A stretch of 64,000 bases of DNA, from the NCBI RefSeq assembly GCF_013426205.1, contig NC_089422.1, positions 4,898,001 through 4,962,000 on the forward strand, written 5' to 3'. The notes beneath the pieces were generated by a model that saw only the letters and a program-made list of their open reading frames with translations, did not search any database and was not told the DNA's origin. Source of the DNA: Metarhizium brunneum (lineage: Eukaryota; Ascomycota; Sordariomycetes; Hypocreales; Clavicipitaceae). Positions 7,868-63,348 of this stretch are shown one piece after another (positions within the stretch are counted from its first letter, which is position 1; every line of letters starts with the position of its first letter). The position numbers were made by a program, and so were the translations under genes.

Positions 7868-7883
7868 TACGGAGTGCTCCGTA
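7868..7883. repeat. Inverted TACGGAG motif pair
   Basis: TACGGAGTGCTCCGTA is a near-perfect palindrome built from one TACGGAG and one CTCCGTA. It is a member of the dispersed motif family described under findings. Confidence 0.7.
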
Positions 7884-8948
7884 GAAGGATGAACAATACT
7901 GGAGTCACAGGAAATACCGTCATCGGAATCTTGATCTCCCCCATCCGCCCGTCCGCCCTGGTCAGCCATGCTCCCAATGGAGTCGTCGTGGCAGCGAAGC
8001 CCAGATAAGCCAGGGTCCAAAAAGACGACATGCGCAAAACAATGGAATGGAACCGCCCACTGCTGTCTGCGCACTGGTGGGGGGACATGATCAACTGACG
8101 GCCTGTACGAACCCATCCGTGATGGATAGCTTGTATGCAGCCTGCCTCCTCCTGCACGCTCTGCGCGTCCTGCACGTCATTGCTGACGGCTGCACATGTG
8201 CGATGGGGAGTCCGATGAAGAGATGATAGTACATAGTATTCCTGTCTGGATTCTGGAGAGCCATTACGGGGCAACCATATCTTAGTTTCACATGGTGCAT
8301 ATCGCATGTTGCATGTCGTAGACAAGAGCCAACTTTAGAATCAACGTCTCTCTGCGCAATGATGGGCGCTTTGTGTTCAACGTTGGCTTGTTTCAACTTT
8401 ACCGGGAACTGGGAGCAGTCAATGGCACAATACCTCGTATATGCTGTACAAATCGCCTCCTCCGCCTGTTCTCTCCACCCCGACCATTGATTCAAAGCCT
8501 TGTAACCTTGTCATTGTGCAGTGGTGCACAGAGATTGGCGATCGGAGCATGCTGATAACTCGGTATGTGTTGTTATTAGTGCCCTGTTCCTTGGCCAACG
8601 ACCCATGCAAGGAAACAAATGTGTAAACAATTGTTGCCGTTGTCGTGGATGCCTCAGCCACCACGACTTGGGACAAAAAAAAAAAAAGCGCGCAATTAAA
8701 TAGAACGACCTCGGACTCTGTATCAGAAGCGGCGATTAAAAAAAAAAGTCACCTGCATTTGTCCCCACCAAAAACAGCACTTGAGGTCTTGCACTCTTGG
8801 CCATTTATTTGTATGCATCAGTGCGGCGACTCCCGCGTCTATTAGACCGCTCATTGCTCTTTGGCTAAACTACCCTAGCTGCATTATGCTCTTGCGTTAT
8901 CTTCGGTCATGTTTGTTACATTCCTTTTCTTTCTATCGTAGCATTTAA

Positions 8949-9863
8949 TTACTCCTCCTGCCTTCTATTCCAAACCACGCAATCATCAAACTTGACCCCG
9001 TTCCCACCAAAACAGTCCAATGCACTACCAATAGTCAGGTCGACTTTGCCCCCGCTGAGCCGTTTGACGAGATCCAAGTCTTCCAGATACCGCCCTCCAC
9101 CGGCATAAGTGACGGGGATAGAGCACCACTCGGCCAGTCTCTCCACTAGCTTCTCGTCTATGCCCTTCTGCAGGCCCTCATTGTCTGCCGCATGAATCAA
9201 GAACTCGGAGCAATACGGCTCCAGGGCTTTGATAGATTCTGGTTCCACGGTCAGCCAAGCCGTCAACAAATTCCGTACCCTGGAGTCCCATTCCCGGCCA
9301 GCCACCTACCTTGATTGACCTCCATGTCCGTTACTGTTTGCCATTTGTCCATAGCCACAAACCATGAGGCCTCACCGCGCCGGCGACAACTCAGATCAAT
9401 GACCAGTCTGTTCTTGTCGCCGCCCAAAGCTCCGAGAACGGCGTCTAGTCTTGACTGGCTAAATTTCCCTCCCGGGAAGAGATATGATGTGATAATGACC
9501 TGGTAGTGTTCCCTTTAGCCTCCGATATTGCGAGCCGTCTTCTGCCGGGCTCGTGGAACCAACCTTGGAAGCCCCCGCGTCCACCCACTCCTTTGCGTTC
9601 TTGTCGTTGATCCCGCCACCTACTTGCAAGTGACCCGGCCACGCCTGCAACGCCTGCTTGGCAGGCTCCGTGTTTCCCGGCCCCAGCATGATGGCATGAG
9701 CGCCCTCGAGGGAATTGCTCCGGTACAACTCTGCAAAGTGAGACGGAGGGTGTTGTGACACATAATTCGTCTGCAGGGCCGACGAGGCGCTGTCGAGAGT
9801 CCCGCCGACAATCTGCTTAACCTGGCCGGCGTGTAGGTCTATACACGGTCGGAATCGTGTCAT
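8949..9863 (-). CDS. his6: ProFAR isomerase (histidine biosynthesis)
   Basis: Three exons: 9564-9863, 9310-9499 and 8949-9238, coding 259 aa, close to the usual fungal His6 length of about 260. It isomerises ProFAR to PRFAR, the fourth step of histidine synthesis, in the cytosol. The TIM barrel starts [17 protein letters not shown] with the first catalytic Asp at position 9. The second Asp lies in [11 protein letters not shown] (about 135). The phosphate-binding ends HLQVGGGI and VTYAGGG are both present. The ATG at 9863 is chosen because it matches the family N terminus; an in-frame ATG at 9893 would add ten residues. Introns are 64 and 71 nt, the latter with a CTGAC branch point. The MFS gene lies upstream on the same strand. 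Confidence 0.95.
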
Positions 9864-10341
9864 TATAGCGGTTGAGCCGCGCTCAAGGCTCAAATGATGT
9901 AGTCTTGCTTGAGTATGGATGAGTTTTCATGCTGCGATGTGGATGAGATGAGATGAAGTTGATGGTGGGTGGGGCTGGTCAAAAGTGACGCAACAGCAGT
10001 TTGTCTCGGGAAGGAACTGGACCACGCCTAACTACCTAGGTAGACACTTTCTCCTTCACTTTTTTTTTTTTTTACTTTGCCTCGCACGCCGCATTCCAGT
10101 TTCAGAATCAATTATACATGTATTGATTAAACACAGTCATGTAGCCTATGCTCGTTAAATAAGTACTTTTAGACTTTTAAATCTTTTGAAATCCTCGGCA
10201 TGACACTCTCCTTTTCCCGCCTAGTCCAGTCTGTCTATATTTTATCACGGCGGCCGTACTTTTTTAACCCACTCTAATCCAATTCTACAAAGCTGACAGA
10301 AAGAAGAAGAAAATCCTTTGAGCAATAACAGGTCATGAAAT
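9864..10341. other. Intergenic, HIS6 promoter side
   Basis: Contains a poly(T) run near 10060-10073 and AT-rich sequence to 10340. It should carry the HIS6 promoter and the 3' end of the MFS transporter gene. I looked for a general amino-acid-control site (TGACTCA) and did not find a clear one. Confidence 0.5.
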
Positions 10342-12573
10342 CTAAGCTGCCTCCTTCTTTTTCTTCTTCTCATCGTGAGCTTTTTGCGCCTCCTCCTTTA
10401 ACTTTTGGTCATCCGGTCGACTCAACTCTACCTGCGGCATGAGGAAAAATGCCAGGACAAATGCAAATGCGGCCAATGATGCACCGATAATGAAAATAAT
10501 ACGGAACCCTCGTTTATATGCCGGGAAAAGAATAGCTCTGACACGGTCGGCTTCTTCTGGAGACACTTCTCGGAGATATTCTTGTGGGTTGCTGAGTAGG
10601 ACTTTGGCTGCGTTTGCATCCAGGTTAAGGGATGAAAATGCTCCAGCCAGAATGTTGTTGCTGCACATTATCAGTACGTTGGTATAAAGTAGGAAAGGGG
10701 TCCATGTGTAGGTTTTGGCTCACATTACAGTCCCAGAGACTGCAAGTCCAAGGGTTGACCCGAGGTTTCGGACGAAACTGTTGCACGCTGTTAACATCTG
10801 CTGGCTTAGGGACGGGTTGTCCCAATCTCTTCTTTTCTTTCTGCACATACTTGCGAAATGAGGTAACGATTGCCATGTCGCGGCGCTCAACGCCGGCCTG
10901 TGTTGCAATCAATGCCCTGGGTGAGTTAGATGTGAAACTCCATATAAATATGTGCCAAGTGCGGCAGAATCAACTAACGGCTGTAGTGTGTTGCCAACTC
11001 CAACACCAATCAGTAAAGCGTAACCAATCTGTTTACCAAGTCCGGTGGTTTCGTCCAAAGTCGACATGAGACCAAGGCCAACGGCCCAGCATACCCAGCC
11101 AAATAAAATACATTCCCGGTACCTGCCGATCCAGTGTACAATCAAGCCGGAAAGAGTGCTGCTGATAGTTTGAAGGATGGTGATGGGAAGAAGAAGAGCT
11201 CCTGACTTTGTGGCAGAGTATCCATAGACGAGCTGGTAGAAGGACGGGACATAGTACACTTGCATGACAAAGTTCCATCCGTTAATGGCCATTGTTAGGC
11301 ATGCGCCGTTGACGATCTTGGACTTGAAAATATGGACTGAGGCATGTTAGCGGCCCATGAGGCGAAAATTGACAGGCAGAAGTGAGGCACTCACGAGGCA
11401 CAAGAGGATACTTTGGTCCTTTCCACTGCCACAAAACGAAGCCAATCGAGACAACCACACCAATCACCATGGTGGTGATGACTTGTACGGAATTCCACGA
11501 GTATTCGCGACCTCCCCAAGTCATGCCCAGAATAAAGATGGTCATGCCGGCAAATGCCAGGAAGATTCCGCCGAAATCGACAGCCTTTAATTTTCTGAAG
11601 ATGTGTTAAAAAATAGAGGAAAGCAAACAAAAAACCCCGGCTGGACTATCGCAGCACGACGAGACTTACAGTTTCCAATCTCCCTGGACCTTCTTTAACG
11701 GCATGAAAAAGATGACACAGCCCGTCGTTAGGGCAGTCAATGGAAGATTGAGACGGAAAATCCAGCGCCATGATTCAGAGGACTTGGACGAAAGAGCACC
11801 ACCGATAACGGGGCCAATACCGTTTGCAATGGCTACAACGGCACCCTTGACACCTTCATCAGCTTAGAAACAAAGAGCAGGTTTGGCCACAAGGTCCCTT
11901 ACCAGAATTCCTTGGTACTTTCCTCTCTCTCGCAAAGGCACGACGTCACTGACAATGAGTTGCGCGACAGTCATCAAGCCACCGCCTCCAATGCCAGTAA
12001 AAGCGCGGAAGACGGTCAGTTGTAGCACGGATTGAGCAAGAGACGATGCCAAAGATCCAATAAAGAATATGGCGAGCCCAGTTAGCAGGACTACTTTGCG
12101 GGACCAAATGTCGGAGAGTCGGCCGTATAGCAATTGTCCCACGGTAGACGTTCTATTCGTCGCATTAGCGAATGTCCTTCTTCTGGACGTTGTAGAGGTA
12201 CATGCATGAAATAACCACTAGCAATCCATGATACTTGGTCTGTTGATCCCAGAGCTCGTCCTATGATGTACAAACTTGTGGCGAGGGTGGTTTGGTCCAT
12301 CAAAGCTAACAGATCAACGCTGGCACAGGCGAGAAAGATCTGTGGCGGTCAGTATGAAGTCGACAGACAGCGTGAGCTATTGTCAGAGAAATGGGTGCGT
12401 ATTACCGTAATGATTGTTCTTTTGGGCACATAGTTCGTCTGCTCGTTGAACTGGTGTACCTTGGCGACTTCGCCGTCGCTATCAGACGATGCAGACGCAT
12501 CGGCAGATGGACTTGCTGGCACACCTACCACCACGGCGGGTTCCTGTGCCTGGCTTGACGACTCTTTCCCCAT
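10342..12573 (-). CDS. MFS transporter, DHA2-type (14 TM)
   Basis: Nine exons: 12406-12573, 12206-12339, 11903-12152, 11670-11845, 11395-11594, 10979-11336, 10851-10916, 10724-10777 and 10342-10660, giving 574 aa. The first ATG in frame is at 12573. A cytosolic Ser/Ala/Asp-rich N terminus of about 70 residues precedes hydrophobic segments consistent with 14 helices. Markers are the MFS motif A-like GRLSDIWSRK after TM2, FRAFTGIGGGG in TM4 and GAVVAIANGIGP in TM5, typical of the DHA2 drug:H+ antiporter group, which also holds vacuolar amino-acid transporters. The substrate cannot be told. The tail is Lys/Glu-rich and ends KKKKKEAA. Intron 2 appears to use a GC donor (12204-12205) with AG at 12153-12154, because no GT site restores the conserved GYFITST. 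Confidence 0.92.
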
Positions 12574-14623: not shown

Positions 14624-16618
14624 ATGGGTAATGACAACTTCTTGAACGTCTACAAGGGGCCCGACTCGGTTCGGCAGTATTTCGATCCAGAGTCGTCGCC
14701 GCCAATGCCCCTGGTTGAGATACCGGACTGTCTCAACCCCTACCGCTCCGAGGGTATTCGCATCTACGCGAAGATGATGTCTATGCATCCCGCTAATAAT
14801 GTCAAGTCAATGCCAGGTATATGACGGCGGCCACAAACTATTCCACTCATGTCATGTCTGTCTAACTCTTGGGTGTCTTGTAGCCCTCAATCTTTTGCAG
14901 AATAGCATCGTCCCAGACAAGACCAAGACTGTTGTCGAATACAGCTCCGGCTCAACCGTTCTTTCCATGTCCCTGATTGCCCGGGCATTCTATGGCCTGC
15001 CAGATGTCCGGGCTTTTCTTAGCAATAAGACTAGTCTTGCCAAGATTCGCCTGATGCAGCTATTCGGAATCAACATGTACGTCATGACTTGGCTCTTGTT
15101 TATACCTTGACAACGGAGTACTCATATACATCCTAGCACGCTGTTTGGCGGTCCCTCACAACCCGAACCGCTTGATGAGCGTGGTGGTATTCGGGCTGCG
15201 CAGAGATTGGCACAGACGTCTGACTCGGCGACTATTAACCCTAATCAATATGAAAACGACAGCGTAAGTCAGGCCACGATTCACTTTGTATACTGTATGC
15301 TAATATAACCCTGTCGTGTAGAACTGGAAGTCTCATGTCAAGTGGACGGGGCCTCAAATCCTGAGGCAGCTACCTGAAATTAACATCATCTGTGCAGGCA
15401 TGGGCACTTCAGGTGAGCTCCCTGGCTCTTCATGTGTAAATGTAACATTGCTAACTTGTGACTGAAGGTACCATGACTGGTCTTGGCACGTACTTTAAGG
15501 AGGCAAAGCCTAGTGTCTTCAGACTCGGGTGAGTGTAGTCTTGAAGCATTCGCCGCTCGATCGGAATCGCTAACACAACAAAACAGAGTCTGCACTGCAG
15601 CCGGTGACCGCGTCCCAGGACCCCGGTCGTACGCCCTGCTGGCACCTGTTGAGTTCCCTTGGAAAGCTGCCGTTGACCACATCGAGGAAGTTGGGTCGCA
15701 CGACTCGTACTCTCTCTCCTTGGACATGATCCGAGAAGGTCTTGTTTGCGGACCCTCGTCCGGGTTTAACCTCAAAGGCCTCTTCCAGTTCATTGAGAAG
15801 CGCAAGGCAGAAGGCAATCTCTCCCAGTTGGCCGGGTCGGATGGCGAGATTCACTGTGCCTTCTTGTGCTGCGATTTGCCATACCAGTATGTAAGCGAGT
15901 ACTTTGACAAACTGGGCGAGTCGTTTTTCCCATCCATCAAAAACGAGGTATGTGCCTAAAAAGCAGCCAACTGTCGGTCACTTTCCGTCATTCATGACTA
16001 ATTTGAGATTAGGAACTCCTCGGCGTCGATGTCTACAGATATGACGAAGCCTGGGAACGAGACGCAGCCGACGCCCTCGCTGCCTTTTTTGGTGTCAGCA
16101 AAACTGTGAGCGGCGATGTGCTTTTGGAAAACAGCGCTGCTCGGCCCAAGTCTGAAACTACAATCATTGATCTTCGCCAGGCGGCAGACTTTGAAGAATT
16201 CCACGTCCCCGGATCTACCAATGTGCCGTTCGTCCAGGCGGACCAGCCCAGTCCCTTCTCTGATCCTAGCGCCCTCAAGGGGCTATGGACTGGGCTTGAA
16301 GAGACTTTCAAAGTCCCTCACCAAGACCTCCAGTCCCTGCTTCACGGCAAGCGTGTCTTGCTCCTGTGCTACGACGGCGACAGCTCCCGCGTGGCGAATA
16401 GTGTGCTCCGGGCCAAGGGGTACGAGACGGACAACATCAGGGGAGGATTCAAGGTCCTCCACCAGCTGAGAGACGAGGCGAAGCGCTCCCTTGCCAATGC
16501 GACGCAGCAGCAGGGCCAGATGTGGTTGAGACTAAGTAGTGAGACGGAGGGGATCACGCCGTCGCAGCCGAGCCAGATTTCGGTGTCTGTTCAACCATTG
16601 GGATCCGCTTCCGGCTAA
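14624..16618 (+). CDS. Cysteine-synthase-like PLP enzyme fused to a rhodanese domain
   Basis: Seven exons: 14624-14816, 14884-15076, 15137-15263, 15322-15412, 15468-15528, 15587-15947 and 16013-16618, coding 543 aa. Residues about 1-345 are a fold-type II PLP domain of the cysteine synthase/cystathionine beta-synthase group. The likely PLP lysine is K61 in HPANNVKSMPA. The substrate-loop position reads SSGSTVLS, and the phosphate loop is GMGTSGTMTG. Residues about 385-500 are a rhodanese domain (IIDLRQAADFEEFHVPGS) with its candidate persulfide Cys at 461 in LLLCYDGDSS. The two domains suggest that sulfur is made or moved by the PLP part and passed to the cysteine. This is inference: the substrate is unknown, and the Asn-Thr-Gly loop of true cysteine synthases is altered. 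Confidence 0.9.
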
Positions 16619-42883: not shown

Positions 42884-44028
42884 GGTTTAGTCGAGGTTAC
42901 CAAGATTGTCAGAGACCGAGACGGGATAGATTTTGCCGGGTAATGCTCAGAGCGGCTTATATGAGCCTGTGAAGCATGATCGAGAGTCCCGGGCACAATT
43001 GTGGAAAGGAGGGGGACAAGGAGTTGAGGTCCAAAGTGAAAAGAAAGCGAAGAAAACCTCGGCAAGTCCTTTGCTAAAGGAAAGAAGAAACGATTGGTTA
43101 CTACACCCTGAGGGTTGTATATGTTGCTAACAGGAAGACGATATGCTCTGCGAACAGCTGGTAGGAGGAAGAGACTGGTCCATGAAACAGTCGACGACGA
43201 CGAGCGAGAAGGCAAAATACGAATACTAGTGAAAACCTGTTGTTTAGGTGGAAGGGAAAAAGTAAAGAGCACTCGGCAATCTTGCAGCGAATAAGCAAAG
43301 GCAATGGGTGCATACACACGACCGATACGCCAAAGAAAGACAGAGGAGAGAACTGGATGTTGGCTAAGGCTGGGCGACCAGCTTTTCTCAGACCCATGGC
43401 CATCCCCAGAAGACAAATCAGTTGCTCTATTGCCGGATCTAGGACTGCATTGGCGTCATCCAAGCGTCAGGACGAACAACTGAAAGTGAAAACGACCCCG
43501 GTTCAAACGGGCGAGTGGTCAGAGACACAAGGCGATAGCATCCGGGCCGCAGGTTGTAGGGCCAATTTCCCAGCTGGGGTTCCAGTGGAGTTCACCATGT
43601 GGATGACGGGCATGAGCATAGACGGTGGTAGGACAAGCACTCGACAGAGCGGGCGGAGCATCTCATTTGTCCACATGCTAATGCTCCTCACTCGCAGGTT
43701 ACACAATGATGGAAAGCTCGCGGTGGTTCGTTCCCATATTGCGGGATTGGCATGATATTGAAAGACTTTGTTCGTTCGGTATGAGGGGGGAAGGCTCTCC
43801 CAAGAAACGCCTGCTTCTCTACGGAGCACCAAGCACTTCATCGCTCGTACCAGACGCTGGCTCTACACCCACGGCTTCTAAATCGATACTATACCCCAAC
43901 TAGCGACGTCGTCCACTTGCCAGGCCAGCCCCGATCGGCGGAGACAGGGGCAGTTCCTAAAAAGCAGCTGGCCCTGTACAATACATACAAACCATCAGTT
44001 GTATGTACATATATGTAAGTAGTATGTG

Positions 44029-44058
44029 CGGAGTAGTACGGAGTAGTACGGAGTACCG
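44029..44058. repeat. Tandem array of CGGAGTAGTA units
   Basis: Three 10-bp units: two identical CGGAGTAGTA, the last changed to CGGAGTACCG. Each contains the core of the dispersed TACGGAGTA motif. Confidence 0.9.
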
Positions 44059-44695
44059 TCAAGTCGGCAGAGGGTGGAGTCCTTTGGTATCCCCGTACAA
44101 TGGGCCATGTTGGCAGTCCGCCGGGCTGGACCGATGTGTGGTAGTATATCCATCTACGGCTTCAGCAGCAGGGATGCCAGGGAAGACACTACCAGAGGGC
44201 CGACATTCTTTTATGGACTGGTCCTGACCTGCCGGGCTGCCCACCACTCAACCACTTGAGCGCTCATGGTCGCTAGCTCAGGTACAAGCGTACGCGCCAA
44301 GTTGCGCCACGCATTTCTACCTTGCGGTCAGTGTGACATCCATTCCGGAAAGGAGGGTTTTATTAGCTGACTCGAAAGGCGACCAAGGACGCCTTGGTGG
44401 CGCGGTGTGACTGGACAATGGTTGCTGGTTTGGTCACAGCCTCGCAGCGAGCGATGCAATGAAGGCATCAACGGTTCCCGCAAGATGGGCATCAAACACA
44501 TGAACAAACACCTGGCCTGCTTCACGCATGTGTTGCAGAGTAACGATATGTCAGATGTGGTTGTTCCATGTCTGTCTCAGTTGGCAAATCCCCGCGACGC
44601 AGTCAGATCTTCTCGTTTCAATCAATCACAGTGTACGGAATAGTAGTGAAGCAGCAACGACAAACTCCCCTCCTGCTCCATTTATATGCACCAAG

Positions 44696-44732
44696 TACGG
44701 AGTACAATGCGGAGTACATGTACGGAGTGCGG
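44696..44732. repeat. Cluster of three TACGGAG-type motifs
   Basis: TACGGAGTA at 44696-44704, then GCGGAGTAC and TACGGAGTG within the next 28 bp. The spacing is irregular, unlike the array at 44029-44058. Confidence 0.8.
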
Positions 44733-47700
44733 CCTGGTTTTGGAGCATCATGCAACTGAGTTCTCTCGGACAAGCCGTTTGAGATCTCCGAGTCCGGGCT
44801 CATAGGCACTCAGTTGCCAGTTGGCTCGTGGCCAGCAAAACCAGATGTGACGGCACGTACTCCATTGCGCACAACTCGAAAAAGAAGCGTTACATTGGTC
44901 TACAGCTCAGAGCATCGAGAGCAGTATTCAGGACATGTTTGCTCAGAGGTTCGCTGTCAAGAAAAACAAATACATCACGAGTATGCTCTTACAATGATAC
45001 ATTTCTGGTCATGCAGAAGACTTACAACGGCAGAAACGGAAAAGCACTACTATCCATCCGAGTCGTGTCTATTGGTCTGAAGGCAGGGGTATGTTGCCGG
45101 CGTGGTGGTAGTACTAGTACTTTCTTTTATCATGACCCCTGTCAACATCCCTTTCATCAGGTAGCCAACAGCCCTCAATGATCCTTTGACGTTCTCGCCT
45201 CAGCCTCAACCCTGGCAATGTTATGCGTGTAGCAGATGGCCGCTCTGGCCGGATCACGGTCTGTCTACTCGCGGCAGTGTCCCCCTTAATTTGTCACCAG
45301 CTGTAGCTTTTGAGTTCCGGAACCAACAGTCTGGAGTCAGCTGCTCGCCAGTGGTTTGTTGCGGTTAGCCTCTCTATGGATTTGCGGCATGTGTGGCAAC
45401 AGACACATCCCAGCCAAGAAGGAGAAGAAGAAGGAGAAGAAACTAATACTAGAAATTGATGTGGACGGCTGCGTGAGATAACGCAGGCAACTAGCAGAAA
45501 GGTTCGTACAATTCAAAGCAGCTCTCCACTTACAACGAATACTAACTGTTGTATGTATATCTGCACGCCGTGCCACTCAGTCCATGCTCTTTACAATGCA
45601 ATTACGGAGCACTAATACAAGCGTAGCTGCTTACACTTTTGCCAGATTTGTACGCGACAAGACTGGCTCGAAGTTTGACAACTCATCAAACATGCACACC
45701 GCCGCCGCGTAAGCCGGACGCATTTTTGGGGCTGGCGTACGGAGTATTACACAGGTGAAGGCGCCCGCCTGTCCAACTCCGGCGCTTTGCATTGGAGAAA
45801 CAGGAAAATTTACACGTCCGCGAAATTAAAGAGGGAATTTTGGCTTTGTGGGATAGGAATAGCATTCTCTTGGCTCTGGGGTGCTTATGCCATCCATCCA
45901 TTGAGAGATGGCGACAGGCCACAGCTCGCGCGCCACATCCCTGTTCATAGAAGTTGGCAGTGATACGGAGTAGAACCATCCCAAGATACGACTACTACTG
46001 GTCCCGCCCGGCTTCCCGATCGAACTCATCAATCATGGCCCATGGGTGCGCATGACACACCGGAGGTCCCGCGCAACCAGGCTCAGGACGCCGTTAGTGG
46101 CTTCTCCACGGAACACCCATCAACGGCAACGCGTTGTTAAATTAAAACGACCCACCTGAGAATGCGCTACGAGACGATCCCACGCTAAATGTCCTTCAGC
46201 TGGCTTGGTCCCGATCGACGATGGTAGCCGACGACATGGGAGCCTACGGCCAGCGCATATCGTCTTGCATAATACTACTCTGTACGGAGACGGGATACAT
46301 GAACCTGCGAGGTTTCGATCCAAGGTGAAGATATCGCCTCGGCTTCACCGTGGCTGTGTACCTGGTATCGCTATTATCGTTGTCGGTACGGAGGATTGCG
46401 CTGACGGGTTGTCGTGCATGTGTGCTTTTGTCATACGCACGAAAACACCTTTTGGTCGCACAAGTAATCAAGTGATGCGGTATAGATGTGCCTCAGCAGC
46501 TAATGATTTCAGTGCCATGCTCTAGGCTACGATTGTGTTGCAAACCGCATGATAGAGTTTGAGCTACCTACTATGCTGATGGCTCGGAGGGACTTGAAAA
46601 AGGCACACGATGGTTGTCAGCATCCCGAATACCCCGAGTGAGGCTGGCCATAATCTCCAGCCCGTCGGGAGGTTCCATCTGAGTGAACTTTTGTTGCCAG
46701 CCAATGTGCTTGCGTAGCTGCCCATCACCATCCCAACTTCCAAGCCCTTGGTCATGCGAGCTGTCCAAGTCAGTTATTTGGAACCAAGGGGGCCACAGAG
46801 CTAGCCGAGAGAAATTTCTATCCGACCTTCAGACCCCCTTCCGCGCCTTGGGCGAGGAAAGAGAGAAATGATGAGAATCCTTGGTGCCCGAACCTCGTCC
46901 GGCCAACACATTGGCATCGCGTTCAAGACTCGTGCGCCCGCACTCGCTCTACCTGGGACGCCAGCCAGGCAAATCGCAAGGCCACGTTTTCTAGCAATAC
47001 TATGCAATGCGTGTCTCGGACAGCTGTCACGATCGTTGTCCTATGTACTCCGCATTTCCTGTTCTGGTTTTTCCTTTGGAATAAAATGGCTCCATATACA
47101 TGCTACCTAGGTAGTCATCAACCTGGGCGTCGTTGTTCCCGACCGGATGCACGAGCTTCACGTGCGCCATTGCACAAAGGTCAAGCCTGCGATCACGGCA
47201 GGCGTTCAATCGTCTTGCGAGTGGCGGTCTTGAGCGAAGGACCAAGTTACTAGCAGCCCGGAGCGACACTGTGATGATGCAAGTCTAGAACAGAACACAG
47301 AAGAGAACTCTGCATATGCCCGTGCTCCATACAATGCGATGCGTCCACCTGGCAGATTCCGCGCACAGCGTAGCCACGACATGTCACAAAGGACGTGGCG
47401 AGTCTCGGCGACCAAGTGTGCAGCACATACTATAGTTACTCTGTGGTCTCGGGCAAAAAATGGCTCTTTTTTTTTTCTTTTTTGGCCCGTCGTCAAGGAC
47501 ATACGCAGCAGTATGCGTTGATAATGGGCATAAGTACATATCATAGCATGACATATCATATGCAGGCGACGAAATGCAGGGGCCGACAATACATACATAC
47601 GCCACAACTATCAGGAACCACAGTCTGTGCTTCTTTAGGCGGCGCTCTCGACACGCGAGAGTCAGGGTAGCGTTCTTCAACTAGCGGGGCAATCTCAGTG

Positions 47701-48082
47701 GCCTTCTCAGTCATTAGCAATTCACTGATATACTACGGAGTAGGTAGGTCATGAATGGTTGGGCAATTTGCATGATTCCAATTCATCATTCATTCATTTG
47801 AACGGGCCGGTTCTCGAACCAAGAGAATGTCTTAGCCTTGGTGAAGACACGCGAGATTACGGATGTAGACGACGAATTAGAATGTGTATTTCCTGTCTAT
47901 CATATATTGCAGCCAAGCTGCCAATACGACACAAGACGTTGAAAAATTTCCTCATTCTCCCTGTGAGTAAAACACTCTGTCACTCCAATATCGTTTCCGG
48001 TGGTATCATGATTTGCTCTCCCAATAATGTCGCATGTGTCCCGTGGTCTGCCGGGATAACAGAATTCGCCAATAAAACAAAT

Positions 48083-48126
48083 AAGAAGAAAGAAAGAAGA
48101 AAGAAGAAAGAAGAAAGAAAAAAAAA
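48083..48126. repeat. Purine-rich GAAGAAA microsatellite
   Basis: Imperfect repeats of AAGAAAG/AAGAAGA ending in a poly(A) run, all purine on the plus strand for more than 40 bases. Confidence 0.85.
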
Positions 48127-48215
48127 CACATTAGAGACCCTCATCATGTGAGTAGGCGGGCATTATGCCATGTCATTTAGGCCCTGCCCAATGTGTGAAT
48201 GAAAGTGAGCACTTT

Positions 48216-49824
48216 TCATCTCTTCATGACACGAGGCGGTACTCTGTCGCCGTTATATCTGGGTGACGACTGTTTGGCGCTCCTCGTCGTGCGGCCCGGT
48301 TTCTCAGCAATGTGGGCCCTTTTGTTGAGATTAATCAAAGCAATGAGAGAACGAAGTGGTAGTGTGATGACCTGGAGAATGGTGTTGAAGGGAAACAGAA
48401 CGATGGCAACAAGCGAATCGATTGTTCGGGCCAGTGCATTCTTGGACCTGCTGTTCTTAGCTGCCACTGCGGCAAGGGCAATTGCATCGTCCACTCGTGA
48501 ATCGAGCGCCTGGAACCGAGAATCCGTCTGGTACTGAAGCATGGTCGCCTTCTTTTCATATCTACGGACTGCTCGGTTGAGCGCGTCGAGTTCCGGTTGG
48601 ATGGCATTGCGCACATCCCGCGCCATATTGGCCGTTTCTTCTGCCTGCACGGGGTCGAGTCCGTCGCTATGCTGTCGAACAAATTCGTCGGCCAGGGATC
48701 GTGCTTCCAGTCTGCTTAGTCGCTCAATCATGTCTTCGATCTGTGCACCTGCCTGTGTAGGCGAAGCAAAGGGATTCCCGTGAATGACTCTTTGCAGGTG
48801 AAGAGTTCTCGACTGTACGAGCTTGAGCGCATGCGAAAAGGCCCGCAGCTCAGAAATAAGGAGGAAGATGGTGAGGTTATAGTTTGAGACGAGTCCTTCA
48901 GATGGTCGGCTGAGTTGTGCCCTGATGTAGTGGAGTACATATGCGCTCAGAGGGGGTAATAGAAAGCACGAGATGAGGGCTAGCACCTCGTGCATATACA
49001 GTTCTCGAAGAGCTGCTTGCTGTTGCGGTGTCGTGCCGCCATCTTTCCCCCTTTTACTCTGCGCTGCCGTCGATGGCCCGTTTGGCTTTGGTGGTTCCTC
49101 TTCTTCAGGGACATTGTCCAGATTGGTAGTTTTGCTGGCAGCGTCGGCAGAAGCGTAATGGCGATCGTCATCTGCCTCGACAGCGGTTTGCGTATGCGCC
49201 TCTTGCTGTATGCGAACTTGTTGCGCTGCATGATACCAGGCCCTGACAAGAGAACAATATAGTCAGCACTCGCAATTGTGTCCAAGTTGAACCCCCGCCT
49301 TTCACCAATGGGCCCCTGTTTGTACTCATGACGTACCATGGCTGCGTCACGGACCAGTGAAGGAACACACCCGACAAGCCCAACAACAGGACGTCCGTGA
49401 TGACGGCGTGGCCATTTTTAAACAAGGCCCCCGCGATGGCTGGCAGCAAAGCAAAGGCCAGCGATAGCGACGCCAGCGACGACGATTCTGGACTGGGCAG
49501 TTCCTGACTGGTCTGAGCTCTGGGATTGAGTATATCGCGTGCCTCGCTGAGGCTGTAGTCGGAGAAGTTGGAGCTCCGACGGGGCAGGCCTGGGGACATG
49601 CCGTCGAAGGACGCCTCGGATCGACTCGTATGAGACTTTCGTCGTAACGACGGGCCGTCGTCCGTGGTCTTGGCACGGCGGATGACATGTCCGGGAGGGG
49701 CATTGCTGGCATTGATGCCCGTGGCGAACCCTGTCGACTTGGTGGTGTTGATGCCGTTGGAAGCGGCGGGGGGTCGTTTGGGCGGCTGCGGCGCCGGCGA
49801 CGTCGGCGGATTGTCGTCGGGCAT
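48216..49824 (-). CDS. Conserved-looking fungal membrane protein of unknown function
   Basis: Two exons, 49337-49824 and 48216-49242 (94-nt intron), coding 504 aa from the ATG at 49824. The first ~110 residues are Pro/Ser/Arg-rich and disordered. Two helices follow (LASLSLAFALLPAIAGALF and ITDVLLLGLSGVFLHWSV), then TQPWAWYHAAQQVR. After an acidic linker comes another hydrophobic pair (EVLALISCFLLPPLSAYVLHYI and LTIFLLISELRAFSHALKLVQ). A long helical stretch with heptad-like spacing spans about residues 340-430, and a last hydrophobic segment (LVAIVLFPFNTILQVITLPL) lies near the C terminus. I do not recognise a named family. The architecture suggests an ER or vacuolar membrane protein with a cytosolic coiled coil. 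Confidence 0.85.
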
Positions 49825-52188
49825 TGTCGCGCACGTCTCTGACTTGCTCGTGTAAAAGAAGGAGGAGGCGGTGGCAGGAACATGGGCCGGGGCGAAAAGC
49901 AAGAGACGCGAGGTCTCGACTATCCCAAATTCCCAAGGCTGAAGGAAGGGAGAGGGACCGGACGGATGTTGTGCAGTCAGTAGTCAGCCCGCGTCGGCGT
50001 CGGGGTTGACTTGGTCCAGCGGCTCGCACATGCAGGCGTCAGGCATGGACCAGTCAACCGTTGACGTCTTGAGCTGTCACGCCCACCAGTTGACACTACT
50101 TGTAGAGTCAAGTGCCAACCCGACCAAGTAGGCAAGGTCGACGGGTGCGTGTCCCAGAAGGGCAACCGGACTTGGCATCTACTTAGGCATCTGCTCCGTA
50201 CTACGTAGGCATCTGCACATGTGCACATCTACGTACGCATCCGGACCCAGCCAGACCCCGCCGCGCTCCAGTGCTCCAGTGCTCCATTGCTCCGCTTGCC
50301 TTTGAACAGCCAGCCACGGCCAGCCGAGCTCGCCTGCTGCGTGGACGCCTGCTTGCCGGCCTGCCGAGCGAGGGTTGTAGAATCTGGGGTAGATGCGTGG
50401 TCCCTTCCCTTTTCGTTACCTGTTGGGATGGCAGACGAAGCCACAGCATCGCCTCATCCGGAAGGAGGAGTTGCTACATTTGAGACGAGAGTTTGGCTGG
50501 GCGAGGCAGGGTGGACTCCGAACATGATGTAAAGTCTGGTGCCAATTCCCTTTGCCCAATGACCTGGTGATCCAACATGTAAAGCATCTGCTGCTGGTTC
50601 CGACTTCAGGTGGCCTAGGATTGGGACGGGAGAAGGGCATCTGGAACCAGCAGACAGACAGCTGCCAGGCAACTTTTGCGACGGCATGTTCCTCCCGGTC
50701 GGCGATCTTGAAGCTGGCGCATCTGCAAGTAATATTTCATGGTAGCACAACTGCTACCCTATAATTTGTGTGGATCAAGTTGGACATCCAGCTCCCTCCA
50801 GTACTGTTGATTCGGACTAATGGACTAATGGCGTCACTGCATGAATTACATCACACCGGGCTATAGCGTCGTTTCCCCCCCTACACCTTCCATTCGTCTG
50901 ATCGGATCAGTCCATACCAAGGGAGGCTGGCCGCGGTCAGACTTGTCGTGACGCGCGCAAAACCGTCATACTTGGAACGGAAACCGGGACGCTGTCAACC
51001 CGGTGCAGACCATGGTACTCCGTAGAGCACGGGGTAAAGAGACGGGGGAGAAAACAAGAAGAAGAAAACAAGAACACAGGTCACAGTTATGGTATTGCTG
51101 ATTTTGCCATTCATTGGACCGGTCCCTGTATGCTCGTGCCAGGAACCCCGGTCACGACGGCAGCAGAAACAAACTCGGACCACAATTTGCAAGATATGCT
51201 CCGTACTCGGTACACAGACGTCTCTTTTTTTGCCTCTGAAATTGGACTTGCTGGATTCGCCTTGTTCAATTGGCTCGGATCATGCGGATCACGGAGGTGG
51301 TTCAACTTCGAAGCAGCTGAATAGTACAACTCGTGTCGCCGACTGTCAAGGCTCGACGCAGACGATGGATCATGGATGACTGAACCAACCACCAACCGGC
51401 TCGGAGCCAGCCGACCCTGTTGGAAAAAATAGAACAATTTGCACCGGTGGCGATGTTGTTGCCAAAACGCCGCGACGGGGCCATTGGGGGCTTGGAACAT
51501 TGAAGGGGGTGCCGTGGTTGAAATGGCGGACAATGCCCATGATTCAAAATCTCCATGTCGCCCAACGCCCACTACTAGCTAGCGTGTTTGTTTTTATTTT
51601 TGCTGTTTCGACCGGCGACTTTTCTTCCCCTGCCATACTCGTGCTCTTTGTCGCCGGGCCGTTGCGCGTGGGAGGACGAGTTCGTCGAGCGAGCAATCCG
51701 ATGGTGGTTGTCCTCGTGGATGCAACCCAGCCATCAATTACTATTGACTAGTCCCGAGCCCATCCAAGCCCTGGCGCGTATTGAGCCATCACAGGCCTGG
51801 CATCTTTTGAACCGCCCTCGCATTGTCTCACCACACACACTCTGTCCATGACATTGCCCTCGGCTCTGCGCTGAGCTTTGGAACTGAGAATTGGCGCTGA
51901 TGCCGGCGTTGGCGCGCGGGGCCTGAAGCCTGAAGCCGAAAGCATCCAGAGCCAGCACTGAGCACTGCACAGGGCACATTGAAACCTGCGACGGGCGGCA
52001 TCGACGCTGTTGTCGCGCTGAGCGGACCGGACCACAGCGGTCGAGTCCACAGCAGTAGTGGGAGCGCCAGCGGTGGCCGCGGTGACGACAGCAGTCTGGT
52101 GGCCACTTGACGGTCAACTGGTGCATGTGGCCCGGCGCCGTCTGGCACGCCTCAAGCGCTCAAGTGCTGTCGACACTTCCTCCTCCGC
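49825..52188. other. Divergent 2.4-kb intergenic region
   Basis: Separates the unknown membrane protein (minus) from the Erf4-domain gene (plus). Overlapping frames on both strands (for example 51111-51572 and 51734-52148) carry no recognisable protein. Contains TACGGAG-family motifs at about 50194, 51016-51024 and 51199. Confidence 0.5.
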
Positions 52189-54023
52189 ATGTCCCCCGTC
52201 TTCTGGCCGTTCTGGCGGCGAAAACCTCGTTCCCAACTGCCGGACGAACACACCACCACCACCACCACCACCGCCGCCGCCAACCCCAATATCCCGATTG
52301 GCCCTCTCGACACGTCTGCCGCATCAACAACACATCCGCCTCGCGAGCTTGAGCTTCACGTGCGTGGAGACGCAGCCCAAGCACCACCGCCAGCACCGCC
52401 TTCTCGCTTTGCCGCAACCACCAGCGGCTCCAGGCCAGCGCCTTCCCTCATCACCCCTGAGCGCCCTGAGCACCCTGAGCACCGCCGTCCACGTCGCCGC
52501 CGTGCCGATCCAGACTCTCCCATCACGACGCCGAACCCATTCCCGCCATCTTCCTCCCCAACACAGACGCCCGCCCGAGACAAGCCGGCCAGCCGTCGCC
52601 TAAAGGCCCCTTCCCAGCAACCTGCCTATCCTCTGGCTTCACTCGACCGCGCCGCAGAGCCTGCTGCCGCAGCCGTGGCAGCCTTGAGCCCGCCGCAGCC
52701 CTCCGTGCATGGCCAGGTCTATAAGCCGAGCCTCGTACAGTCACCGTTTCGCCCTCGCACCAAGGCGACAACCGATCCTGCTCACCGACTTCGGCGGCTT
52801 CCCGCGGCGCGCCTCTGGAATCCAACCAACTCTACGCCCCGGCTTCCCCAGCCCCGAAAGCGCCGACCCTCGTCACCGCCCATTCCCGCATTGCCTCTGA
52901 AGCACCCTGCGCTCGACAGATCCCTGGATATACGTGACCCCGTCACCACCGGTGCTGGCGACTACCCGCTCCTGACCTTGCCTGAACAACGGCGGTCGAG
53001 GTATTCACAGTCTACACCGGTGAGTTTTCAACTTGAACTCGGCGAAACGAGCGATCACAGAATCAGTCTTCCGCGGTCCGTTCGAGCATCGTATGAGGGA
53101 AAACGTTCCGTGCACCGCACATCAACACACTTGGAAGCAACAGCGGAACAACAAGTCAACGACCAACACGCCCAAGAAGCTTCTGTTGCCTACCTCTCAG
53201 CAAAGAGTAAAGGCAAGCAGAAGGCAACCATGGCGCCAGAGAGTGAAGATGCTAGGAGGCCATATTCCAAGGATCTCGAGCGGGGTCCGGATGTCATGGA
53301 CCATCGAGCCTCCAATATTTCAGCCGGCGAAGGCATTGGATCTGCCCTCTCTTCGTCCAACTCCTCAATTATGGGAGACGATGTACAGCCAGACGCCGGT
53401 CAGGAATGGGGCCCCCAGCATCCATGCTTCCCTCATCTGAACCCGCATGTTCCTCTCGACTCGGTCGAGCATGCGACTACGCGAATAATTCGTGTCAAGA
53501 GAGATTGGCTTGTGGCTGGTGACCTGGCCCCGACGTTTTCCAACCTATACCCCGAAATCCTGGACCCAGCTGGCGTTTCCGAGCAAGAGTTTAGACGGGT
53601 TATTGAAAAGCTGAATGGAGAGCTGATACCTATATTCGACCCCTTCACGTTTCGAAACATGCTCGACAGCGTCCTGGGACTCGTGACTGGCTGGTTGTGG
53701 GATGACTTTGGTTTGACGGCTGCCAAATCACGGCTGCATAATCTCGAGAAGTGGATTGAGAAGTGGAATCAAGAGATGGAAAAGACCATGGCATCCGAGG
53801 AAGGCATTATTCCACCAAAGTTGATTTCGCTCCGACAGACAGGGTACATGACTGTGAGTGTGGTACATGCCGTCATCAGTCCCAGCTATTATTTTCTGAC
53901 AACTTGTTCCAGCTTGACATACAGATACCGGATCCTGAGATTGCTCCAGCACCAAGTACTATCGGCGCGGGCGAGTCGCAGACTGCCTTGCCGATGGAGC
54001 CAGCTCCTGCTATCACCGCTTGA
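52189..54023 (+). CDS. Erf4/golgin-A7-domain protein (Ras palmitoylation partner)
   Basis: Two exons, 52189-53853 and 53913-54023, coding 591 aa. Residues about 1-420 are low-complexity Pro/Ser/Arg-rich, including a poly-Thr run from a CAC-rich repeat near residue 22. The conserved part, about 425-545, matches the Erf4/Shr5 (golgin subfamily A7) domain: RIIRVKRDWLVAGDLAPTF, YPEILDPAGVSEQEFRRVIEKLN, LVTGWLWDDFGLT and RLHNLEKWIEKWN. In yeast Erf4 partners the DHHC enzyme Erf2 at the ER to palmitoylate Ras. The same role is inferred here. The final exon adds a short acidic/Pro-rich tail. The protein is much longer than yeast Erf4 because of the N-terminal extension, which might contain an extra start choice. 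Confidence 0.9.
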
Positions 54024-55014
54024 TGACCCGGGCTGTATACATAATTGACGTGAGCGCCACCGGAGAGACCAACACTAGCACACTGCCCGCCTTGCCTGTT
54101 TTATCAATACCAAACGAGGACAAGATGTTTGGGCCGCACAGCTGTGTGGATAAAAAAGAAGGGGTTATTTGAGTTTTTACCTGCCAATTGCGTATATTTT
54201 GTTTAATGTTTTTTTTAGAATATTGATACCACCCGCATGTACGAATATTAGCAAGGCGCTGCTGAGAGGGACCGGTGATGTTCAAATTTTTTATCTATGT
54301 ATATCTGTAGACGGTTGCCACATGGCATGGTTGGCCCCTAGCATCGTTTAGTGACGACGTTTGATACGTCGACAATTTTATGATTGGCCATGGAAGCCAA
54401 GCCTGTAAATCTCATTTTGAACGCAGGGGAAGCTTTTTTCCAAGAAGGCTGAAAAATGTGATGCCAAATAATACCATTCGTTTTAGCCCGGCAGCCTGGA
54501 CAAGTGAGTCCGACATTGAGCATGACAAGAAACGAGACACTCGGTCATCGTCCCGCTTCTGCGTCGGCGCCACGATCGACTCGCACAGCGACGTTACGCT
54601 GCATTGAGAAACGGACAAGTGGCGTACGGAGCTGTCAAAATACCACTTTGTGCAGCCTTATGATTGCTTTTCCCTGCAGGCTTCACTGTGTCTCTAGCAG
54701 GCGTCTGATTTGAGCAAGACGAATGGACATATAGTGGCAACACTACCTGCGGAAATGATGACCGGCGGTCATAACGTCTTCCCAAACAGGAAGTTGGAAT
54801 GTTGATGCTTAGACCCGCTCTTATATCCGTGCCTCTCAAACGACATCGGAGCCCGTGTTGCTCGCTAAACTAGTTGTACTGCTAGTTTGAGGGCATTATT
54901 TTCAATATATCGGCACGACGTGCCTCTTGCAATCTTGAACGGATGGCCCCAGCCGTGTTTTACGTTACTATCCCTACTCCCCATTGTCCTTCCCTTGACA
55001 GCGGAGAATGAATT
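54024..55014. other. Intergenic, 3' of Erf4-type gene and promoter of transporter gene
   Basis: No gene seen. One TACGGAG-type motif near 54625. AT-rich around 54170-54300. Confidence 0.5.
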
Positions 55015-56575: not shown

Positions 56576-57152
56576 TAAGTGAGGTTTCGTATGATTCTTA
56601 TGAAGTGACGACTGGCGATAGCATGTTGCACGTCACATGTTGCGGTATCTGCACATAATGTACTCCGTAGCGAGGAATTAATAGAATAGTATAGAACAGA
56701 ATATTATACTTCGTACATGCGCTGGGAAAAGCCCTCAAAGTGGTAGGGAAGGAGCATTTTTTGGTTGCCAGGGGCTATAAACATTATCGTGGTTTTGTAT
56801 TCATAACACTTGCCTCAGGATCGGATGAATTGTGTTTGTCGTACAGTATCAAATAATCCAGATAGGCTTTAGGGCACTGTACGTATCGGGTGCCGGCATT
56901 TATGTTAATCCGCCCACGGACCACCATGAGGGTAGCTCCTGCTAGTCACTCAGCCGCCAACAGGCTATCGTGGGTAGGCTGCAAGTCTGACGAAGCTCCC
57001 TCTGAACCTACTACATCCTCACTACGGTGGATGTCTTGCTACACTCAACACAACATCTTCTTTTAATCGGTCTTGCATCGATTTTTTGCATCTGAAATAC
57101 GGGCCGCATAGTCATTTTGCAAAAACGCGACAATTGACCCGACCTTGCAACG
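56576..57152. other. Intergenic, promoter of proteasome gene
   Basis: No gene seen. TACTCCGTA motif at 56660-56668. The last 90 bases before 57153 are the likely 5' leader of the proteasome gene. Confidence 0.5.
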
Positions 57153-59569: not shown

Positions 59570-62053
59570 ATGCCACCAAAGAGAAAGGCAGAGACAGCCG
59601 TGCAGGGCGGGTCGAAGGCAGGGAGGTCTTCGCGCGTGTCGACGCCTGGTGCAGCTACGCCTCGTAGCCTCGAGAGTACTGATGATGTGGAGGAAGATGA
59701 CGGGCCCGTCGACGAGGTTCTCGAGCGTGACATCGACAAAAACATCGATTTGTTCTCCCTAGATCGCTTTCAGAAAAGACATGCCGTTCGGGAGCCGCTC
59801 CCGCACATTTTTGGTGACCGTGACTTCTCGTACCTGGACCTCAAGAAGGATCACCAGAACCGCCCGCTTTGGATCGATCCGCAAAAGGGCAGGATCATTC
59901 TGGAGAGCTTCAATCCCTTGGCGGAACAAGCGCAGGACTTTCTAATTACCATTGCCGAACCGCTCTCTCGACCGACATTTATGCACGAGTACGCCCTCAC
60001 GACACATAGTTTGTACGCCGCCGTCTCCGTCGGCCTCTCTCCCACCGACATCATTAATACCCTGGAGCGTTTCCTGAAGACGCCTCTTCCTGATGAAATT
60101 CGATCATTTATTACGAGTTGCACACAGAGTTATGGAAAAGTCAAGCTTGTGTTGAAGAATACCAAGTACTACGTGGAAAGTCCAGACCCAGAGATGCTGC
60201 AAATGCTGCTCAAAAATCCTGTCATAGGACCGCTTCGCGTCCAGGGCACAGAAGAGATTACTACCTCGGCCGCTCCCAAGATTGGTGGTTTGGTTATTCC
60301 TGGTACCAAAAACGCTGCTGGTGTTAAGCAGGCAAATGGTTTGTCCCAGGGTGCTGAACAGCAGAACGAGCAGGCCGTCAACGAAGGCGACGTCTTGGCC
60401 ACCCTCAACGAAGAGGACGATGATGATCAAGAGGTTACGCACTCCTTCGAGATTGCTGACAAGGACGTAGAAACTGTCCAGAAGGAGTGTCTGAACCTTG
60501 GATACCCCGTGTTAGAGGAGTACGATTTTCGTAGAGATGAGGTCAACTCAAACCTGGAGATTGACCTGAAGCCCGGCACCCAAATTCGGCCGTACCAAGA
60601 AAAGAGTCTCAGTAAGATGTTTGGCAATGGTCGAGCCAAGAGTGGGTTGATTGTCTTGCCTTGTGGTGCCGGTAAAACGCTCGTGGGCATCACGGCTGCT
60701 TGTACGATCAAGAAGGGCATTATTGTGCTTTGCACCAGTTCCATGTCGGTCGTACAATGGAGAAACGAATTTCTGAAGTGGTCAAACATCAATCCAGACG
60801 ACATTGTTGCTTTTACATCAGACTCCAAAGGATCCGTCTTCACCGGCAGCACTGGCATCATTGTTACAACCTACTCCATGGTGACACAATCGCGAGCTCG
60901 CTCATACGACGCCGATAAGATGATGAAGTTCCTCACAGGGCGAGAATGGGGTCTAATGCTTTTGGACGAAGTGCACGTTGTGCCAGCCAACATCTTCCGA
61001 AAGGTCACGTCCTCCATCAAGACTCATTCCAAGCTCGGCCTCACGGCGACTCTTCTCCGAGAAGACGATAAGATTTCCGACTTAAACTTCTTAATCGGAC
61101 CAAAGCTCTTTGAGGCAAACTGGATGGAGTTATCCAAGCAAGGGCACATCGCGAGGGTACAATGTGCGGAAGTATGGTGTTCTATGCCCACCGAGTTTTA
61201 CGACGAATACTTGAGGGCGCCATCCAGGAAAAAGAACTTGCTGTACATCATGAACCCTCGCAAGTTCCAGGCCTGCCAATACCTGATCAATTATCATGAG
61301 ACTAGAGGAGACAAGATTATTGTCTTTTCAGACAATGTGTACGCCTTGAAAGCCTACGCCTTAAAGCTTGGCAAGGCGTTCATCTACGGCGGTACTGGAC
61401 AACCCGAGCGCTTGAAAGTTCTTGAGAACTTCCAGCACAACCCTCTGGTGAACACTTTGTTTCTTTCAAAAATTGGCGACACCTCGCTCGACTTGCCAGA
61501 AGCTACGTGTCTCATACAGATTTCATCTCACTACGGCTCTCGACGTCAGGAAGCTCAGCGTCTGGGCCGTATCTTGCGAGCTAAGCGTCGAAATGACGAA
61601 GGCTTCAACGCCTTTTTCTATTCTTTAGTTTCCAAAGACACCCAAGAGATGTACTTTTCATCCAAACGACAAGCCTTCCTGGTTGATCAAGGTTACGCCT
61701 TCAAGGTGATTACTCAACTGGCCAATATCGAAAAGACGCCTGGGCTGGCATTTGCCACTGCCGGTGAACGACGAGAGTTGCTGCAAAAGGTTTTGGTGGA
61801 GAACGATTCCATGGAAGACGAAGATATCACGGACGACCTCTTCCATAGCGGTAGCATGGGGCGCAAGAAGAAGAAGGGTCCGCGCAGGACTGCGGGCACG
61901 CTAGGCGAGCTGAGCGGTGGCCAAGACATGGCGTATATCGAGCAGAACAAGAGAGTGAACCAGGGACTCAAGAAGGGCAAGGGCAAGAAGGACAGCAATG
62001 CATTTTTCAAGAAGATTGGACGAGAGAATGCTAGACGGGCTGCGGCTCAGTAA
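59570..62053 (+). CDS. ssl2: TFIIH helicase XPB/Ssl2 (Rad25)
   Basis: A single exon codes 827 aa, in contrast to its intron-rich neighbours. The 3'-5' translocase of TFIIH opens promoters for RNA polymerase II and acts in nucleotide excision repair. The N-terminal region shows [22 protein letters not shown], the damage-recognition-like part of XPB. Motor motifs are [19 protein letters not shown] (Q-like), Walker A LPCGAGKT near 364, DEVH near 465, [12 protein letters not shown], an RED-type motif, and helicase [23 protein letters not shown] and [15 protein letters not shown]. The C-terminal [12 protein letters not shown] and [13 protein letters not shown] are basic nuclear-type segments. The ATG at 59570 gives the expected MPPKRKAE start. 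Confidence 0.97.
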
Positions 62054-62914
62054 CTTGTGCTTGGACTTGCATAATGGTTCAACAGCCGAAGCTTATTTGA
62101 TTTGGAAACACTAATGGGTCGTGAGTTGGTTGGGCAACAATGGGAGGGAGTAATGGCGTTTTGGGGCTTCGGGGCGGGTTATTTGGAATTGGGCGTTGTT
62201 ACCGCCGCCGCAGTAGCATTTGGGAGCATAGATTATTGCACACGGAGAGCATTGATGCAAACAAAAGATTGGAACGGGCTACTAAAACTTCAGACGTGGA
62301 CTTTGATGTAAGTTCCTGGCTTGGTGTGCTGCAGCTGAGCCGTGGTCAACACATTCAAGTGAGCCACTGGCTGAATTGGCCTTGGTACGTGCCGAGGTTG
62401 ATCTTGAGGAAAGGAGGGCAAAAATACATGAGGGATAATTTGCACACTACCGGCAATGGCATGCAGGAAATTCAAACGCGCGTGAAGCGCACCATTGTAT
62501 ATTGATTGACGGCCGAAGTGAACGAGCCACATCATGGTTTCGACTGATGTGACATCATGCAAAACCACCAGTTGCCTCCACCAAGAGATCCAGCGACATG
62601 AACGCCATTGTATGTAATTTACATACCAGGGTAGTTGGGAGGCCTGAGGGCTGACGAGCTGCAACATGATCCGCACGCAGAGACACATGGCAGCTGGGGA
62701 TGCGTCCTACTCAATGGGCAAAATGCGGGTTTGGACGACGGCCGACCATGTGAGGAGCGAAATTTGGACATGGCCGTGGACGATCAATGCGCCATCAAAC
62801 TTTCAAAGTTGGCCAACTTTGGGCTTCGAATGAGCTGCGCAGGTTTCGTATCATGATGGCGTGCTCCGTCTGGCACCTGTACCAGAATGCACACGTCGAT
62901 ATGTATGTATGTAC

Positions 62915-62930
62915 TACTCCGTACTCCGTA
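62915..62930. repeat. Tandem TACTCCGTA motif
   Basis: TACTCCGTACTCCGTA, two overlapping copies of the inverse-oriented dispersed motif. Confidence 0.85.
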
Positions 62931-63146
62931 TGCACAATGAGTGCATGGCGCCGGCATTTTGGGCAGAACCACCGAGACAGGGAGCTGCATGCATCCTGGG
63001 CTTGGTCCGAGAGTCAATCGACTGGCAGACGTTGGTTACACGGCAGGGCACGTTATCAATTGATGTTATTCCTTTGGGCCACGGGACGTCGAATGGGGAC
63101 AAGTTTGTTTCGTCTGCGCACGCTATGGGAGATGCGGAAAGCCATC

Positions 63147-63163
63147 ACGGAGTACGGAGTACA
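63147..63163. repeat. Tandem ACGGAGT motif
   Basis: CACGGAGTACGGAGTAC contains two overlapping forward copies of the dispersed motif. Confidence 0.85.
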
Positions 63164-63331
63164 TGAGGGTGGACAAGAGGTGAATAGGCTTTTGAATGTG
63201 GGAGCTGGGTTACTCTGCCCGAGGCGAGGGATTTTAATGCCAAGAAAAAAGAAATGGCCATAAAAAACTGACACAGGGGACGAGGAGAGAGCGGGCATTT
63301 CATTTGCTGGGCCTTGTACAGGGACAGGCTC

Positions 63332-63348
63332 CTCCGGAGTACTCCGTG
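63332..63348. repeat. Palindromic CTCCGGAGTACTCCGTG
   Basis: Forward and inverted half-motifs joined, making an imperfect palindrome centred on AGTACT. Confidence 0.8.

Follow-up and report, generated by a model that had tools for sequence, protein, structure and literature searches.

A 9-base pair (bp) word, TACGGAGTA, is dispersed over the 64-kb window analyzed here (positions 4,898,001 to 4,962,000 of contig NC_089422.1 of Metarhizium brunneum; coordinates below count from the first letter of this stretch) and over the whole 37.77-Mb genome, which comprises seven contigs. The word is real, genome-wide, and sharply defined; in sequence it is a SomA-type site, hence largely of a known kind, and it is probably bound by protein. 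It is proposed to be the core of an 11-bp transcription-factor site, GTACGGAGTAC or, on the opposite strand, its exact reverse complement GTACTCCGTAC, for which the best candidate reader is a SomA/Flo8-type LisH regulator. The probability of this reading is put at roughly one half.

The window contains 11 exact copies of TACGGAGTA over both strands, compared with a mean of 0.16 and a maximum of 2 in 100 dinucleotide shuffles, and 36 forms with at most one mismatch, compared with 6.05 ± 2.51. A sequence-only reading of this DNA had described a dispersed motif expected by chance well under once per 64 kb, and both this expectation and an excess over background in the two orientations genome-wide are borne out. 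The genome harbors 5,151 exact copies (2,556 + 2,595) as opposed to 327 (170 + 157) for the reversed word, a control that lacks a CpG and differs in composition. With up to one mismatch, the corresponding counts are 6,913 + 7,084 and 4,459 + 4,425. The 11-bp extension GTACGGAGTAC occurs 1,662 times versus 19 for its control, and the G...C flanks that define it are found on 32% of the 9-mers, where about 6% (1/16) would be due by chance.

Sequence context was assessed in a 264-kb sample consisting of the window and a further 200 kb (20 stretches of 10 kb at 200-kb spacing), all on a single contig (C1). A home-made coding model assigned 43% of this sample to coding DNA (114.4 kb coding, 149.6 kb non-coding). 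It under-calls genes and still misses some; for example, a stretch matching the Pfam family PALP at 14778–15107 is uncalled, and part of another at 15477–15956 is placed on the wrong strand. In the called non-coding DNA of the sample there are 34 exact and 57 one-mismatch copies of TACGGAGTA, while 60 letter-shuffled words, each keeping a CG, average 0.92 and 25 (maximum 4 and 44).

In Aspergillus fumigatus, chromatin immunoprecipitation sequencing (ChIP-seq) of SomA recovered GTACTCCGTAC in 119 of 476 shared peaks, promoter fragments carrying GTACTCCGTAC were bound by SomA in gel shifts, and mutation of the motif in the agd3 fragment, where it reads GTACTCCGTAT, abolished the interaction (PMC7667024). 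The meaB promoter is bound through the SomA motif, which is also repeated in a review.

By analogy with A. fumigatus, the 11-bp site would be read in Metarhizium by a sequence-specific transcription factor, and this reader may be a LisH regulator of the SomA/Flo8 type. The sites lie outside called coding DNA in the sample, are clustered, and stand in either orientation. Because the site begins and ends in TA, with the palindromic GTAC a frequent end, neighbors can share an end and thereby form direct and inverted arrays with a 7-bp step. It is proposed that a SomA orthologue is present in Metarhizium and binds the site and that a fair part of the copies may regulate genes.

Arrays, substitutions, and location

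Tandem pairs that share TA number 221 genome-wide (109 + 112), and inverted pairs with a shared end occur 64 times as TACGGAGTACTCCGTA and 37 times as TACTCCGTACGGAGTA. Non-overlapping pairs at gaps of 0–30 bp amount to 95 in tandem and 37 and 31 inverted, or about 3.1, 1.2, and 1.0 per gap. The sharing of TA alone raises the chance of a pair 15.5-fold, and the frequent C/G flank (17 and 18 of 34) adds a factor of up to 2. Shared ends would be expected to yield 47–95 tandem pairs and 18–37 and 15–31 inverted pairs, which leaves an excess of 2–5 fold in the tandem form and of 1.7–3.6 and 1.2–2.5 fold in the two inverted forms. The 7-bp arrays come largely from neighboring sites with common TA/GTAC ends, and it is the tandem arrays that exceed this expectation most. 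A special mechanism for the inverted pairs is little needed, given the numbers already predicted from the shared TA together with the C/G flank preference. The leftover excess could stem from heptamer slippage or from cooperative binding. Among the 95 non-overlapping tandem pairs, 11 have a gap of 5 bp (a 14-bp step), and in four of these the middle unit is perfect. The 11-mers are clustered: among the first 100 listed, which are all on C1, 25 of the 99 intervals from one to the next are below 1 kb, where about 3.5 would be expected.

The substitutions are unevenly distributed over the word. The 57 one-mismatch forms in the non-coding sample fall at positions 1 to 9 as 6, 6, 6, 6, 8, 0, 3, 16, and 6 (chi-square 23.4, simulated p = 0.003), in a test that takes clustered sites as independent and leaves a background of about 2.8 per position unsubtracted. 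Position 6 is invariant, and position 8 is the most variable. Among 90 sites of the form TAC-N3-GTA, the spacer is GGA/TCC in 34, and the next commonest spacer is found in 7. This dominance rules out pure low complexity as the sole cause of the word.

All 34 exact copies in the sample, and all 36 window sites with at most one mismatch, lie outside the segments called as coding by the rough model, as do 57 of the 63 one-mismatch forms in the sample, the other six being in called coding DNA. The claim that no copy is in a coding exon thus stands for the 9-mer and its near forms in the window, but not for the bare core, which does occur in called coding DNA of the sample (CGGAGTA 9 of 58, TACGGAG 5 of 69); one CGGAGTA, at 4442, falls within the reading frame 2857–6414. 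The absence of the 9-mer from called coding DNA indicates non-enrichment and is no proof of active exclusion, since base composition predicts less than one exact copy in the 114 kb of called coding sequence. Between genes, exact sites per 10 kb amount to 1.5 in divergent, 2.3 in same-strand, and 1.5 in convergent gaps and to 3.2 in edge intervals, and the 4.8 kb of intron-like gaps in the sample contain none.

Candidate readers and rival explanations

Several observations weigh against the proposed reading and against a simple promoter site. A search for LisH domains in the genome returned four loci, none of which reads as SomA, with a 27-position model that can miss domains split by introns; by eye, we take these loci to be GID8-, RanBPM-, TAF5-, and FYV10-like. 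The Metarhizium copies far outnumber the SomA peaks of A. fumigatus, of which only a quarter (119 of 476) held the motif. No promoter-side bias is seen in the sample, with four exact sites in 26.5 kb of divergent gaps versus three in 19.7 kb of convergent gaps, small numbers that depend on rough gene calls. The one-mismatch forms alone number 8,846 genome-wide versus 8,557 for the reversed word, again a control without CpG and of different composition, and the test of substitutions by position takes clustered sites as independent and leaves the background unsubtracted, with transitions making up 32 of the 57 one-mismatch forms. Other words of the form TAC...GTA are equally over-represented in the sample: ACCTAGGTA outscores TACGGAGTA among 9-mers (29 versus 0.45 expected, against 34 versus 0.88), TACATACATA occurs 10 times versus 0.18 expected, and TACTAGTA and similar words are likewise in excess. 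Finally, the recovery of the same MEME motif for two unrelated factors suggests that motif finders may report a word that is merely common between genes.

A neutral, mutation-driven word, in which a TAC...GTA family grows between genes by slippage and shared ends with little function, is a less probable alternative. Besides the words just named, it draws on TACCTAGGTA, found 14 times versus 0.04 expected; on the confinement of ACCTAGGTA and TACATACATA to called non-coding DNA (29 of 29 and 10 of 10); on the surplus of tandem 7-bp arrays; and on the lack of a promoter-side bias in the sample. The one-mismatch excess (57 versus 25 for shuffled words) about equals the number of exact copies (34), and the share of transitions points the same way. 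A common GTAC can join TAC...GTA words to the motif, as it does for TACCTAGGTA in one sample stretch (L022, near 1863); this and the excess of such words keep a mutational explanation plausible. It is countered by the sharp consensus, with its dominant GGA/TCC spacer, by the constancy of position 6 and the variability of position 8, and by the inverted arrays, which are not a product of slippage and also exceed the gap baseline. Moreover, ChIP and gel shifts identify the same 11-mer as a binding site in a different class of fungi (PMC7667024). The self-spreading short repeat that had been proposed from the letters is possible as a mutational component, chiefly in the tandem arrays, at about 2 to 5 times the shared-end expectation.

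The site could also be a protein site whose main reader is not SomA, an account about as probable as the neutral one, in which it is bound by a C6 zinc-cluster factor, for which CGG is a typical half-site, by a C2H2 factor, or by several factors at a common open-chromatin site. The word overlaps predicted C6 zinc-cluster motifs of Aspergillus nidulans (JASPAR UN0291.2; PMC12153272), and MEME gave TACGGAGTA among six motifs from the ChIP peaks of the C2H2 factor UvCGBP1 of Ustilaginoidea virens (PMC8344781). However, it is for SomA that a gel shift with a mutated probe exists (PMC7667024), and a gel shift reported for UvCGBP1 was on AGGGG and not on TACGGAGTA (PMC8344781). A Metarhizium reader of the word was not found in the available parts of the reports on RNS1 (ACCAGAC, BM1) and COH2 (TGA[C/G]T[C/A][G/A]), which give other motifs, and the main text of the Beauveria OsrR paper contains no CGGAG. 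CGGAGTA appears once each in the AtrR paper and the Fusarium verticillioides Con7 paper, and TACTCCGTA once in the SntB paper, in every case within a primer. Of the candidates offered by the sequence-only reading, a replication or boundary protein site retains its protein-binding part, which is the best supported, in the form of a transcription-factor site (11-bp identity to the SomA site and uneven substitutions).

A transposon footprint or target-site duplication, either of the type left by the Starship Tardis or of the TA-duplicating Tc1/mariner kind, is highly improbable. The units do read TA-CGGAG-TA in both orientations, and Tardis has a 9–11 bp direct repeat with the predicted target TACGGAGTAG (PMC12153272). 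Yet no repeat family of at least 20 bp in the window covers the motif copies, inverted pairs at gaps of 0–30 bp are found at only about one per gap, the inserts of up to 30 bp between paired sites look unrelated by eye (unaligned) across the genome, and 5,151 copies are unlikely to descend from few recombinases. The genome has 17 matches to the DUF3435 recombinase domain, on contigs C2, C3, C4, C6, and C7. Twelve of these loci (L033–L044; 45 kb with overlaps, about 1.5 kb on each side), whose genes may or may not be Starship captains, contain no exact TACGGAGTA, where the genome average predicts about six, fewer given the overlap and coding content. A one-mismatch form occurs once each at five of the 12, two of these apparently being the same site. 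Starship target duplication was set aside, and the earlier suggestion of a transposon footprint finds no support. In keeping with decay of mobile elements, six of the 12 DUF3435 matches have internal stop codons, and one AT-rich locus has a GC fraction of 0.31.

Sites in the window and neighboring features

The sequence-only reading had listed about 20 places, and its coordinates hold to within a few bases; one-mismatch forms account for several of these places, and those at 46283 and 54625 are the core TACGGAG only. The two orientations, the 10-bp and 7-bp tandems, and the palindromes that it described are all present. On the plus strand, a three-site tandem array with 10-bp steps (44027/44037/44047; 44027–44055) reads TGCGGAGTA, TACGGAGTA, TACGGAGTA, and a further TACGGAGTA at 44696–44729 is accompanied by near-sites at 44708 and 44721. 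Exact plus-strand copies follow at 45738–45746, 45964–45972, and 47734–47742, and exact minus-strand copies at 51016–51024 and 56661–56669. Two exact minus-strand copies at 62915–62930 stand in tandem and share TA with a 7-bp step (62915/62922), forming one of the 221 such pairs of the genome, and at 63146–63161 (plus strand) CACGGAGTA and TACGGAGTA follow each other with the same step (63146/63153).

Near-sites make up the remainder. On the plus strand, TACGGAGCA at 45603–45611 represents the most frequent one-mismatch form of the 264-kb sample (11 occurrences), and TACGGAGGA lies at 46387–46395; on the minus strand, TGCGGAGTA occupies 47046–47054. At 46276–46289, the near-site TACAGAGTA (46276–46284, minus strand) is overlapped by the core TACGGAG (46283–46289, plus strand), while at 54625–54631 (plus strand) the same core stands alone, more than one mismatch away from the 9-mer. 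Overlapping near-site pairs with a 7-bp step are found on the minus strand at 50192–50207 (50192/50199) and 51197–51212 (51197/51204), and palindromes of two near-sites in opposite orientations at 7868–7883 (7868/7875) and 63333–63348 (63333/63340). The near-site AACGGAGTA at 15112–15120 (plus strand) lies between two plus-strand stretches matching PALP, 14778–15107 and 15477–15956 (the latter below the curated cut-off), in what by eye is a probable intron, in agreement with the intronic placement first given to it. Sites with at most one mismatch beyond those listed earlier include 17333, 32287, 38318, 39172, 43820, 56707, and 59156.

Upstream of a TM7S3/TM198-like gene, no coding segment is called over 5.3 kb (42886–48221), and this stretch holds six of the 11 exact window sites; the sole Rfam match of the window, a tRNA, lies outside it. 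An Erf4-like protein is encoded at 52111–54048, and its best named match is from M. robertsii (95% identity over 87% of the query), with 86% identity in M. acridum.

Other short words are in excess in the 264-kb sample as well. A second palindromic word, TACCTAGGTA, is likewise dispersed, with sites at 877, 10033, and 47104 of the window and in sample stretches L016, L021, L022, and others, and is several times chained with other TAC...GTA words. AACATTGAA occurs 28 times versus 2.7 expected, 23 of these in called non-coding DNA, with sites at 51496, 58027, and 63729 of the window and in stretches L010, L023, L026, and others. It is twice found in tandem with a 7-bp step that shares AA (L023 7349/7356 and L026 446/453), a layout as in the motif, and we know of no reader for it. 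ACCAGAC, which has been published as the site BM2 of RNS1 in M. robertsii, occurs 77 times versus 43 expected, 63 times in called non-coding DNA. A 12-bp tandem repeat of AACCAGAACGGA-like units in called coding DNA (L026, 1976–2141) probably encodes a low-complexity protein segment.

Comparison with known systems

The same word has surfaced in separate contexts, and the available parts of the cited reports do not connect the repeat of Tardis, the site of SomA, the motif in the U. virens peaks, and the word in Metarhizium with one another. Joining them poses the questions of whether one regulator reads thousands of copies and whether the sites of this regulator are targets of giant transposons. 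Caution is also called for, as this word may turn up for unrelated factors when motif finders are applied to ChIP peaks from such fungi. A broader interpretation, rather unlikely as it stands, sees in the word an intergenic element that is conserved at high copy number in filamentous ascomycetes, with thousands of copies, several unrelated factors as its readers, and at least one Starship that lands on it. It would then be a general chromatin-opening or architectural site, and not the switch of one regulon, within a TAC...GTA family whose members share ends.

U. virens belongs to the same clavicipitaceous family as Metarhizium. The 9-mer of its UvCGBP1 peaks is identical to the Metarhizium word, but it is one of six motifs there, and the reported gel shift was on AGGGG (PMC8344781). 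In the Af293 genome, CTACGGAGTA lies above the 99.99th percentile of k-mers, and the authors of the Tardis study proposed a transcription-factor site for the word while calling its function open (PMC12153272). The predicted Tardis target, the 9-mer plus one more base, has its core word in common with the Metarhizium motif; there it marks insertions, whereas here the 12 DUF3435 matches, taken with about 1.5 kb on either side, contain no exact copy. The SomA site of A. fumigatus is the closest counterpart in that the 11-bp word is identical, and it was reported upstream of genes (PMC7667024). In contrast, the putative Metarhizium site is present as 1,662 11-mers and 5,151 9-mers, with no promoter-side bias seen in the sample.

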